The notes below the pieces were generated by a model. The model did not search any database. It was not told the DNA's origin and was given only the letters and a program-made list of their open reading frames with translations. From the NCBI GenBank assembly GCA_018648325.1, contig JABGRK010000011.1, forward strand, positions 147,578 through 211,577: a DNA stretch of 64,000 bases, given 5' to 3'. A program made the translations under genes and the position numbers. The number at the start of each line of letters is the position of its first letter. Within the stretch, counting starts at the first letter, position 1. Of the stretch, positions 59,161 through 63,807 are shown in pieces. Origin of the DNA: Chloroflexota bacterium (GTDB lineage Bacteria; Chloroflexota; Dehalococcoidia; JABGRK01).

Positions 59161-59595
59161 TTATGAGCCCTCTTTCAATATGTCAGCCAGAGTCTCAAGA
59201 GCGACAAGATAGCTTCTGTATCCCAAACCGGCTATCTGGCCCAGCGCAATTGGAGCTATTACCGACTTCTGTCTCCACTCCTCACGGGCGTGGATGTTTG
59301 ACAAGTGCACTTCGATAATAGGAGCCTTAAGGTCGGCCAGCGCATCCCTCAGAGACAGCCCGTAGTGAGTCAGTGCACCGGGGTTGATGATGATCCCGTC
59401 CGCCTTTTTTGACTGAACGGCATCTACGATGTCACCCTCGCTGTTAGACTGAAACGCCTCGATGCCTATACCAAGCGCCTTTGCCCTGTCGGCGAGTTTA
59501 GCGTTGATTTCATCCAGCGACACACTGCCATAAATCTCGTTATCCCTTTGTCCCAGTTGATTCAGGTTAGGTCCGTTAATTACCAGTATCTTCAT
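59161..59595 (-). CDS. aroQ: 3-dehydroquinate dehydratase, type II
   Basis: This enzyme converts 3-dehydroquinate to 3-dehydroshikimate in the shikimate pathway. The 144 residues fit the small dodecameric type II enzyme: ILVINGPNLNQLGQRDNEIYG with the catalytic tyrosine, FQSNSEGDIVDAV, IINPGALTHYGLSLRDAL and IEVHLSNIHAREEWR. Usual NPGAYTHTS is replaced by NPGALTHYG, a modest variation. It overlaps topA by 20 bases. No other shikimate genes are in the window. Confidence 0.93.
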   Translation of the reverse strand: MKILVINGPNLNQLGQRDNEIYGSVSLDEINAKLADRAKALGIGIEAFQSNSEGDIVDAVQSKKADGIIINPGALTHYGLSLRDALADLKAPIIEVHLSNIHAREEWRQKSVIAPIALGQIAGLGYRSYLVALETLADILKEGS

Positions 59596-61645
59596 TACCT
59601 GCTACCTCGCTTTTTGAAGTATCCGGTTTCTTGTTGCTGGTGTAGTCGCACTTGGGGAAGGTTGAACAACCAAAGAATTTGCGCCCTTTCTTGGAGCGCC
59701 TCTCAATCAAATCACCCTCACCGCATTGCGGGCATTTTATGCCTGTCTCTTTAACGATTGATTTGGTGTTTTTGCACTCGGGGAAACCGGTACATGCAAT
59801 GAATTTGCCAAAGCGGCCCTGCTTGATTACCATGGGCTGGCCGCATTTATCACAGTCAACGCCGGCAGGCTCATCCTCAACTACAACCTTCTGTATGGCC
59901 TCATCCGCTTTAACAAGATCTTTATCAAAAGATTCGTAGAATTTCCTGATAATGGGGACCCACTGCTGCTGGCCTTCGGCTATTACATCCAGCTCATCTT
60001 CAATCGACGCCGTAAATCCCAGATCCACGATGTCCCTAAAATGCTCTGTTAGCAGGTCGCTTACCAGCATACCTATCTCTTCAGGCGTAAAAGCACCCTT
60101 CACCTTGGTCACATAGCCACGCCCCTGGATAATAGACAGGATTGGCGCGTAAGTACTCGGTCTACCTACCCCGTTTTCCTCCAACGCCTTGATTATTGTA
60201 GCCTCGGTATACCTTGGCGGTGGCTGTGTGAAGTGCTGATCGGGTATAAGGCTTATCAAGTCCAGTATTTCGTCCTTGGTAAGTTTGGGCAGCGGCGGTT
60301 TTTTGCCGTTGTCCTCATCCTCTTCATCAACACTCTCGCTGTACAGAGCAAGAAATCCCGGGAACTTCACCTTGGAAGCCGTAACTCGAAAAAGGTAATC
60401 CTTAGCTGGCTTTTGCGGTTTAGCATTAATGTTTGCAGTATCTGTACCGATTACAGCCGGTGACATCTGAGAAGCTACCATCCGATTCCAGATCAGATTA
60501 TACAACCTGTGCTGATCCCGGGATAAATAGCCCTTGATCTTATCAGGTTCCCTGAGCACCGATGAGGGGCGTACTGCCTCGTGAGCCTCCTGTGCACCCT
60601 TTGACTTCTTAGCAAAAATTCTTGCCGTTTTGGGCAGATATGTATCCCCGTATTTTTCAGCGATAAATGTTCTGGTAGTTTCCAGCGCATCAGCTGATAC
60701 CCTTGTGGAATCGGTACGCATGTAGGTTATCAGACCAACCGTGCCCTCCTTGCCCAGCGCCAGCCCTTCGTAAAGTTGCTGTGCTATGGACATAGTGCGT
60801 CTGGAATCCCATTTCAGCTTACGGTATGCCTCCTGCTGCAGTGTACTGGTTATAAAGGGTGGTGCTGGTTGTCTGCGGGTTTCCTTGTGCTTGATTTCAG
60901 CAACACTGTACACAGCCTTCTGAAGCTCAGATGTAAACTTTTTAACCTCATCCTGGCTTGATATGACTATCTTTTTGCTTCCCTTGGCTGCGTATCCTAT
61001 TAAATCGGTTTTGAAGGGTTTTGACGGCTTACCTTTTGTTTGTTTGGCCAGCTCAGCGTCTATGCTCCAGTACTCAACCGGTGTAAATTCCTTGATCTGG
61101 CGCTCGCGATCAACGATCATCTTGAGCACGGCCGACTGCACCCGTCCTGCAGAGAGACCCCTGCGTACCTTGCGCCATAGCAGTGGACTCAGCTTGTAAC
61201 CCACCAGCCGGTCCAGAACACGGCGTGCCTGCTGAGCATTAACCAGGTGCATATCTATATCACGCGGATGATTAAACGCCTCTTTAACAGCATCCTTGGT
61301 GATTTCCTGGAACACAACCCTATATGCCTTTTTCTTCTTATCAGGATCGGTCGCCTCCAGCAGATGCCACGATATTGCCTCTCCTTCACGATCAGGGTCA
61401 GTTGCCAGATAGATCGCGGAGGCATTTTTAGCTGCCTTTTTGAGCTCGGTAACGACCTTTCTTTTATCGCGCGGAATAAGATAGTGGGGGGCAAAATCGT
61501 CTTCCACGTCAACGCCCAGCTTGCTTTTGGGCAAATCCCTGACGTGTCCAACCGATGCTTTAACTTCATATTTGCTTCCCAGATACTGACCAATGGTTTT
61601 AGCCTTGGCCGGCGACTCTACTATAACCAGTTTTTTGCTTGCCAT
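59576..61645 (-). CDS. topA: DNA topoisomerase I
   Basis: This 689-residue type IA topoisomerase relaxes negative supercoils. The N-terminal TOPRIM domain (KKLVIVESPAKAKTIGQYLG, ATDPDREGEAISWHL) is followed by ARRVLDRLVGYKLSPLLW and the active tyrosine in GLITYMRTDSTRVSADAL. RYTEATIIKALEENGVGRPSTYAPIL comes after that. Two C-terminal zinc-finger units (CDKCGQPM, CTGFPEC and CPQCGEG, CSTFPKC) follow. It is shorter than the E. coli enzyme, as usual in this type. dprA is ten bases upstream. Confidence 0.97.
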   Translation of the reverse strand: MASKKLVIVESPAKAKTIGQYLGSKYEVKASVGHVRDLPKSKLGVDVEDDFAPHYLIPRDKRKVVTELKKAAKNASAIYLATDPDREGEAISWHLLEATDPDKKKKAYRVVFQEITKDAVKEAFNHPRDIDMHLVNAQQARRVLDRLVGYKLSPLLWRKVRRGLSAGRVQSAVLKMIVDRERQIKEFTPVEYWSIDAELAKQTKGKPSKPFKTDLIGYAAKGSKKIVISSQDEVKKFTSELQKAVYSVAEIKHKETRRQPAPPFITSTLQQEAYRKLKWDSRRTMSIAQQLYEGLALGKEGTVGLITYMRTDSTRVSADALETTRTFIAEKYGDTYLPKTARIFAKKSKGAQEAHEAVRPSSVLREPDKIKGYLSRDQHRLYNLIWNRMVASQMSPAVIGTDTANINAKPQKPAKDYLFRVTASKVKFPGFLALYSESVDEEDEDNGKKPPLPKLTKDEILDLISLIPDQHFTQPPPRYTEATIIKALEENGVGRPSTYAPILSIIQGRGYVTKVKGAFTPEEIGMLVSDLLTEHFRDIVDLGFTASIEDELDVIAEGQQQWVPIIRKFYESFDKDLVKADEAIQKVVVEDEPAGVDCDKCGQPMVIKQGRFGKFIACTGFPECKNTKSIVKETGIKCPQCGEGDLIERRSKKGRKFFGCSTFPKCDYTSNKKPDTSKSEVAGNEDTGN

Positions 61646-61655
61646 CTATTACCCT

Positions 61656-62759
61656 TTACGCATTAATTATATTTGACTGTCTTGATAGTACATAGTTCAT
61701 GCCGTTTACCTGCTTGACAAGTCCTCGCAGTTCCATCATAGCAAGATTGCTGCTCACAATTGCTATACCAAGGCCGCTGCTACGGCATATTGCATCTATA
61801 TGAGTCGGATCGTACGATAGCTGCTTTATCAGCGCAGATTCCGTCTCACTTACCATTATTGATTGTTTTGGCTCGACCTGTGCCGGAATAGCGCTCAGGT
61901 TTAGCTCCTCTAGTATGTCTTCGGCTTGCATTACCAGCTTGGCTCCATCTTGAATCAAATGGTTGGTTCCGCGGCTCAAGGGCGATAGCACGTTGCCTGG
62001 TACTGCAAAAACTTCTCTATTTTGTTCCAGAGCCATGTCCGCGGTAATCAGTGCGCCGCTGGCATCTGCAGCTTCCACAACCAGTACTCCCAGGCTAAGT
62101 CCGCTCATAATACGATTGCGCCGTGGGAAATTATGCGCCGCAGGCTTGGTTCCAATAGGGTAGTCGCTTATCAGTGCGCCGTTTTCCGCTATGTGCTTAG
62201 CAAGCTCAGCATTTTCTGCCGGGTAAATCATATCCAAACCACAACCCATAACGGCAATGGTTCGTCCTCCGGCACGAAGCGCTGCCTTGTGCGCTACGGT
62301 GTCAATTCCCCTTGCAAGGCCGCTGATAACGGTTATCTTATTGCGAGCAAGGTCCTTGGATATCCCCTCGGCGATTTCTTTGCCGTATACAGATGCCTGC
62401 CTTGAGCCTACCACCGCTATAGACCAGTAATCGTTCGCAGTAAGCATTCCCTTTACATATATAACGGGTGGGGCATCGTATATGTCACGCAGCTGGCTGG
62501 GATACTCAGGATCGTTCCATGTGTGTGCCTTAACGTTGTGCGTTGCCAGCTTTTCCATCTCCCTGTCAAGAGCTATAGACGATCGCCCGGAAATAATAGC
62601 CTCAACAGATTTTGTATCCAACCCGGCAGCCTTTAGTTGCTTGGCATCAGCATGCCACGCCTGTTCCATGGAGGCAAAATTTTGCTCCAGCTTAAGCGTT
62701 CTGGCACGTCCGATCCCAGGTATTAAATTGAAGCCAATGTAATAGCTAACTTGAGACAT
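61656..62759 (-). CDS. dprA: DNA-processing protein DprA
   Basis: DprA protects incoming single-stranded DNA and loads RecA during transformation. The 367-residue protein has a short N-terminal helix-hairpin region (LIPGIGRARTLKLEQ), the Rossmann core IAVVGSRQASVYGKEIAEGIS, SGLARGIDTVAHKAALRAGGRTIAVMGCGLDMIYPAEN, FPRRNRIMSGLSLGVLVVEA and VFAVPGN, and a C-terminal winged helix. Together with comEA/comEC elsewhere in the window it suggests a natural-transformation capability. It is 38 bases downstream of the DUF5343 gene and ten upstream of topA, a classic pair. Confidence 0.96.
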   Translation of the reverse strand: MSQVSYYIGFNLIPGIGRARTLKLEQNFASMEQAWHADAKQLKAAGLDTKSVEAIISGRSSIALDREMEKLATHNVKAHTWNDPEYPSQLRDIYDAPPVIYVKGMLTANDYWSIAVVGSRQASVYGKEIAEGISKDLARNKITVISGLARGIDTVAHKAALRAGGRTIAVMGCGLDMIYPAENAELAKHIAENGALISDYPIGTKPAAHNFPRRNRIMSGLSLGVLVVEAADASGALITADMALEQNREVFAVPGNVLSPLSRGTNHLIQDGAKLVMQAEDILEELNLSAIPAQVEPKQSIMVSETESALIKQLSYDPTHIDAICRSSGLGIAIVSSNLAMMELRGLVKQVNGMNYVLSRQSNIINA

Positions 62760-62797: not shown

Positions 62798-63460
62798 TTA
62801 CTCGTCAATTTGTGAACGCCTAATAGCCAGCCTGATTTTTCTAAATAGCACTATTAGCTCCTCAAGGCTCATATCAGCGGTCTCGGGAGTTATAGACAGG
62901 GCGAAGGTAGGGGAAGGGTCTAACGGCGCCCCCTCAGGAGACGTCTTTTCAGTTCTGCGTTTCCTTGGTATCCGATCCTGTTTTAGTCTATTTGCCGCTC
63001 CCGGCTCTTTTGACGAAACAAGTGCGGGGTTGATTTGAATATTTGCCTGCTGGCATAAACTGATAAAAAAACGGCTGGCCTTTGTTGCCATTTCTATACC
63101 CAGGCCCAGCTCGGTAATAAAGCAATTATGAATCTGGTCTCTTGAGGCCTGTTTAATGTCAATCTCATCAAATATATCTGTGTAGGCCGTTTTAACTATA
63201 TCCTGCAGGGCCAGTACATATGAAGGCCCACGTGTTTTTAAAAGACGGCTCTTTGTGGTCGGCTTGCCATCTTCGTCTATTATCCCCAGATATCTTAGGG
63301 CACCAACAACCTTGTACTCATTGCCCGGTGCCACGCTGTTATTTTTCAGCAGGCGTGCATCCACCTTAGCAGGGGAGAGGCGGTGCATAAGTTCTATACC
63401 GGCAAGCATACCCCCGGTCGGTCCGTAGGGTGGCGGGACCTGTTTTTCGGCGTCGCTCAT
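62798..63460 (-). CDS. DUF5343-type protein
   Basis: This 220-residue protein begins PPYGPTGGMLAGIELMHRLSPAKVDARLL, then YKVVGALRYLGIIDEDGKPT, which I match to the DUF5343 family from memory. The region near residues 20-110 could be a winged-helix-like fold. The C-terminus is basic (RLKQDRIPRKRRTEK) with an unstructured linker and a final helical segment. No function is known. An excellent GGGAGGTGA ribosome site lies seven bases before ATG. Its promoter is overlaid by the CGGACT/AGTCCG repeats, so it is probably regulated, possibly by its own product. It heads the dprA-topA series. Confidence 0.7.
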   Translation of the reverse strand: MSDAEKQVPPPYGPTGGMLAGIELMHRLSPAKVDARLLKNNSVAPGNEYKVVGALRYLGIIDEDGKPTTKSRLLKTRGPSYVLALQDIVKTAYTDIFDEIDIKQASRDQIHNCFITELGLGIEMATKASRFFISLCQQANIQINPALVSSKEPGAANRLKQDRIPRKRRTEKTSPEGAPLDPSPTFALSITPETADMSLEELIVLFRKIRLAIRRSQIDE

Positions 63461-63481: not shown

Positions 63482-63807
63482 GCGGACTGTGATAAATAGT
63501 GCCAGTCCTGCCCGATATTATAGTGTTGCGTACTACGGACTGTCAATAGTCCGCAACTGTGCACCAACGAACCTACAATAAGACAAAAATGACTTCATTT
63601 TACATGAGTCCGTAGAATATATTCGCGGCGGACTGCCAAATTAGTCCCCAGTCCGCACAATACTTGTGCGGGACTACGGAAAAGACTTGCGGGTTTTTGT
63701 GCAGTCCGTGCGCTTTTCGGCATTTCGCGTAGCTAAACGAAGCGCCAAAATGACGGACTGTAGGCGACATTAATCGCTGTGAGGCGCAATAAAATACAGT
63801 CCGGACT
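63482..63807. repeat. ten interspersed copies of CGGACT/AGTCCG
   Basis: The hexamer CGGACT occurs at 63483, 63536, 63629, 63754 and 63802, and its complement AGTCCG at 63548, 63607, 63650, 63703 and 63798. Inverted pairs are 63536/63548 (six-base gap), the 8-bp pair GCGGACTG (63628-63635) and CAGTCCGC (63649-63656), and the palindrome AGTCCGGACT (63798-63807). Looser versions are at 63503 (CAGTCC), 63643 (AGTCCC) and 63670 (GGGACTACGG). Confidence 0.85.
63517..63546 (-). promoter_or_regulatory. promoter of the DUF5343-dprA-topA series
   Basis: On the minus strand TTGACA (63541-63546), an 18-base spacer and TATAAT (63517-63522) are both perfect. One repeat (63536) sits in the spacer and overlaps the -35, another (63548) lies just upstream, and a third (63483) lies in the leader about 25 bases after the start. 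Confidence 0.75.

Follow-up and report, generated by a model that had tools for sequence, protein, structure and literature searches.

The stretch of DNA analysed here (64 kb, referred to below as the window) carries on its minus strand a gene for a 220-amino-acid DUF5343 protein (62798..63460; Pfam PF17278, E=1e-9, above the curated cut-off), which we propose to be an autoregulator. It is followed on the same strand, after 38 bp, by dprA (61656..62759; Pfam PF02481, E=1.2e-82) and, after a further 10 bp, by topA (59576..61645), an entry of the ORF list whose identity comes from reading the sequence. Both genes are presumably co-transcribed with DUF5343. On the other side, beyond the window, lies rsmG (L002:1935-2696), also on the minus strand. 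The same neighbourhood contains a 666-amino-acid ORF (L002:4213-6213) with repeated 'GSAYVFTRSG' motifs, suggestive of a repeat protein that is secreted or sits at the cell surface.

Between rsmG and the DUF5343-dprA-topA genes lies a dense array of short repeated words (63483..63807), a putative operator array. A first-pass annotation of this DNA had reported ten copies of CGGACT/AGTCCG around the DUF5343 promoter, and both their number and their positions were borne out: exact copies are found at 63483, 63536, 63548(-), 63607(-), 63629, 63650(-), 63703(-), 63754, 63798(-) and 63802. To appreciate this density, we note that 2000 first-order Markov sequences contained a mean of 0.10 copies per 325 bp, with a maximum of 2. 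The density of the hexamer elsewhere, which the annotation had singled out as a check, was equally low, with a mean of 0.09 copies and never more than one in the remaining 325-bp tiles of the window. When all hexamers were compared across all 325-bp segments of the 64 kb, CGGACT ranked first with its 10 copies, followed by the overlapping word CAGTCC (8), and the next best word reached 6. The cluster is therefore real, but the word had been drawn too narrowly: the conserved core is GGACT(G/A), hereafter GGACTR, of which CGGACT is a subset. Thirteen GGACT/AGTCC cores in both orientations span 63484 to 63807, including three (63504, 63643 and 63671) that the CGGACT count had missed.

Spacings of 51-53 bp are present between sites of the array, and we found no single spacing rule among them; the spacing is irregular. 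A search for helical periodicity returned best periods of 9.25-10.25 bp, which were weak, inconsistent and inflated by related sequences, and this line was dropped.

The DUF5343 gene has a perfect promoter on the minus strand, as had been noted, with a TTGACA -35 box (63541..63546) and a TATAAT -10 box (63517..63522) separated by 18 bp. Two of the words form an inverted pair, CGGACTATTGACAGTCCG, over the -35 box (63536..63553, minus strand). One further site had been placed in the leader; a site is indeed present downstream of the -10 box, but there are two (63484 and 63504, within 63483..63508), in inverted orientation in the presumed leader, and an inverted pair is found there in several orthologues as well. 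The putative binding sites thus overlap the core promoter of DUF5343's own gene, as is expected of an autorepressor.

Conservation and linkage of the array

A class-wide search of 393 genomes, mostly draft assemblies, separated strong DUF5343 orthologues (E < 1e-36) sharply from weaker homologues. With the locus described above, the 26 strong loci (L016-L041) make up a set of 27, drawn from many families and with about 40-67% protein identity to the queries; start codons were picked by rule, and some of the 27 loci are close relatives, so that their counts are not all independent. The most frequent 6-mer in the 400 bp upstream of these genes was GGACTG/CAGTCC, with 134 copies distributed over 27/27 loci, against 11 expected when scaled from the adjacent gene bodies. 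CGGACT occurred 89 times in these upstream regions, compared with 4.9 in shuffles (maximum 12 in 500). From -300 to the start codon there were 12-30 sites per kb; inside the DUF5343 gene and further upstream than -300 the density fell to about 1.5 per kb. The conservation upstream of DUF5343 genes in relatives that the first-pass annotation had asked about is thus present in the 27 orthologues.

The geometry of the promoter is conserved as well. Of the 27 orthologues, 21 have a recognisable TTGACA promoter, and 20 of these 21 have a site downstream of the -10 box. In 16/27 the -35 box is enclosed in a GGACTR-TTGA-CAGTC inverted pair, that is, a GGACTR pair over TTGACAGTC. The picture is weaker in a few orthologues: L020 has one site, and in L037-L041 the pattern used recognised no TTGACA promoter.

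The genes around the array vary. Directly downstream of DUF5343, dprA is found in 14 of the 27 orthologues, and at least 10 others have something else there. Upstream, rsmG was detected at the locus described here and at one other (L036); elsewhere the neighbour is an FAD-dependent oxidoreductase-like gene (L011) or a cytidine-deaminase-like gene (several loci), names that come from reading the translations. Conversely, eleven dprA genes that do not directly follow a strong orthologue, in genomes with a strong orthologue elsewhere or with only a divergent DUF5343, have 0-1 GGACTR in up to 500 bp upstream. Since the array persists next to varying upstream and downstream genes, and dprA genes away from DUF5343 lack it, the array belongs to DUF5343 and not to dprA, topA or rsmG. 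With gaps of 38 and 10 bp between the genes, control of dprA and topA, which had also been suggested, is plausible in this genome, but such control is not what is conserved, since loci that lack dprA still have the array.

The putative operator word changes between DUF5343 clades

In a tree of the family the 27 strong orthologues form one clade (support 100/99), and deep branches elsewhere are unsure. More divergent DUF5343 clades have promoter arrays made of other words, namely GGACAA, TGGAAT, TGAAAT and TGATTA. Clade words were fixed on training loci, after which 20 further loci were fetched, and only these held-out counts are independent. On the held-out loci, GGACAA occurred 16 times in clade f14/g61 (0.7 expected), TGGAAT 25 times in clade f15 (1.4 expected) and TGAAAT 7 times in clade f44 (0.7 expected), and the counts of each word in the other clades were mostly near expectation. 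Two single genes carry TGATTA (6) and TTGCAAT (5); since these two words were counted on the very sequence in which they had been discovered, this is weaker evidence.

Genomes with two DUF5343 genes offer an internal comparison. In six such genomes the strong orthologue has 6-9 GGACTR sites upstream, and the second DUF5343 gene has 0-1. The divergent DUF5343 paralogue of the genome studied here (L009, G000 C10:10868-11377) has no GGACTR array, and no repeated word was detected upstream of it. The presence of other words in other clades, together with paralogues that lack GGACTG arrays, indicates that the operator word follows the DUF5343 gene. These results, with the conservation upstream of orthologues, strongly support the earlier suggestion that a regulator, perhaps DUF5343 itself, binds the region at multiple sites. 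On one contig (G039 C31) two DUF5343 genes lie about 37 kb apart, one (L063) with a TGATTA array (6) and the other (L036) with a GGACTR array.

The DUF5343 protein and its proposed role

DUF5343 is the sole significant Pfam domain in the protein (39.2 bits against a cut-off of 27), and PF17278 was matched by 53/53 members of alignment A3 at E up to 1. An AlphaFold2 model built from six sequences had a mean pLDDT of 71.6, with ten-residue blocks at residues 21-70 reaching about 88-91. The model has a helix-helix-helix-hairpin pattern at residues ~15-68, resembling a winged helix, followed by a helical domain, a disordered linker and a C-terminal helix. A Foldseek search with this model gave no match at E<=0.001 (best PDB E 0.09). 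Matches to helix-turn-helix sequences were marginal (an IclR HTH at E=0.02 in one of 53 members and a MarR-type chain at E=0.19), and a PDB sequence hit near threshold, 7bqq (E=0.0019), was set aside as a poor per-domain match. Judging from the model, the N-terminal part of DUF5343 likely adopts a winged-helix fold. The putative recognition helix, at about residues 43-57, is APGNEYKVVGAL in the GGACTG clade and differs in other DUF5343 clades.

The protein also resembles in sequence PDC-M34A, a candidate phage-defence component of PADLOC (E=1.6e-12), which we treat as a lead only; PDC-M34A is a candidate model, and no other part of such a system was identified here. No DUF5343 relative was found in the viral contigs searched, and no paper on either DUF5343 or PDC-M34A was found in the literature searched.

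We consider it likely that DUF5343 is a DNA-binding protein, probably of the winged-helix type, that binds along the array and acts as a repressor of its own promoter and of any co-transcribed genes. The N-terminal part, a predicted three-helix bundle with a beta-hairpin wing, would bind single GGACT(G/A) words in either orientation. The presence of sites in both orientations and their irregular spacing suggest that single words are bound, with flexible contacts between the bound copies, and binding may be cooperative. Many bound copies would then build a nucleoprotein complex extending over the start region, the -35 box and as much as 300 bp of upstream DNA. This complex would block RNA polymerase, so that DUF5343 would limit its own level; at the locus described here the same block would lower the level of the co-directional dprA and topA. 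The sites that overlap the -35 box and those that follow the -10 box are in repressor positions. The most likely outcome is therefore autorepression through an extended complex, and activation by way of the distal sites is a possibility. Autorepressors with several operators typically have the operator over the -35 box and start region of the regulator gene, and have one to three dimeric operators; the DUF5343 array, in contrast, has up to about a dozen 6-bp half-sites in both orientations over 300 bp. On this reading, a domain family of unknown function gains a testable role and predicted DNA words in several clades, its clades would form a natural series of protein-operator pairs with changed specificity, and a possible route of dprA and topA control appears in these poorly cultivated Chloroflexota.

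A separate, unlinked regulator might instead bind the array and control DUF5343, which would then be some sort of effector such as a defence protein, as the similarity to PDC-M34A would allow; the fold assignment of DUF5343 is not significant, and a distinct regulator in each clade would give the same co-divergence. Each change of word, seen from one DUF5343 clade to another and even between the two DUF5343 genes of a single genome, would require such a regulator to have duplicated and diverged in parallel. In the genomes checked, clustered sites are moreover almost confined to the DUF5343 promoter, which is unusual for a separate regulator, and we regard this explanation as unlikely.

The anatomy of the array also recalls partition systems, in which repeats lie over the promoter of a small DNA-binding-protein gene. 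In type III plasmid partition, TubR binds tubC repeats upstream of its own gene and also represses tubRZ (PMC7762940), and both cases share direct and inverted repeats that precede the gene of a (here putative) DNA-binding protein. DUF5343 differs from TubR in that no TubZ or TubY partner was seen, the contig is chromosomal, dprA-topA or unrelated genes lie downstream, and no significant structural match was obtained. The parC repeats of ParR (type II) and those of omega (type Ib), about ten in number, flank or cover a promoter and serve both repression and nucleoprotein assembly (PMC5016525). The number of short repeats at the promoter is similar here, but ParR and omega are ribbon-helix-helix proteins, whereas DUF5343 is predicted to be mostly helical with a winged-helix-like start, and no motor protein was seen. 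In our view it is very unlikely that DUF5343 assembles into a complex of the TubR or ParR kind whose task is to move or position DNA and which causes autorepression only incidentally. The DUF5343-dprA-topA operon contains no TubZ, ParM or ParA gene, and in the other loci, read within 1.5 kb of DUF5343, none was seen next to it; a ParA-like ORF lies about 1.7 kb downstream at L039. In addition, the position of the array varies in single-contig genomes, and one genome (G039) can carry two arrays of different words.

An iteron-type replication origin had been suggested too, and repeated short sites upstream of a putative DNA-binding-protein gene, with rsmG as the upstream neighbour, would be in keeping with it; rsmG is often found near origins in other bacteria. 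This suggestion was not supported and appears highly improbable: dnaA is on contig C11 and the array on C2, and the array stays with one gene although its neighbours differ, rsmG having been detected upstream only here and at L036. The reading that the repeat is functionless and arose by chance or mutation, for which the shortness of the words and their irregular spacing might speak, was rejected as having a negligible probability, given the conservation in many families of the class at 40-60% protein identity (89 CGGACT copies against at most 12 in shuffles) and the Markov, tile and hexamer-scan statistics.

Beyond autorepression by DUF5343, a broader and more tentative proposal is that these proteins constitute a new, probably winged-helix family that binds arrays by oligomerising on clade-specific clusters of 6-bp words. 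Protein and operator would then co-evolve as a self-contained, portable unit that might also be used for silencing or locus organisation, and a second target may lie near the tmRNA gene in two genomes. Ten genomes were searched for inverted GGACTR pairs, TTGACAGTCC and direct pairs; outside the DUF5343 promoter these were mostly scattered single sites, and clusters were rare. One such cluster, in G062 (C68, L140:2499-2668), packs seven GGACTR sites into 170 bp; it lies some 270 bp downstream of the tmRNA gene and may be another target of this regulator. A group of six GGACTR sites in G252 (C142, L163:1553-1722) occupies positions matching those in G062.
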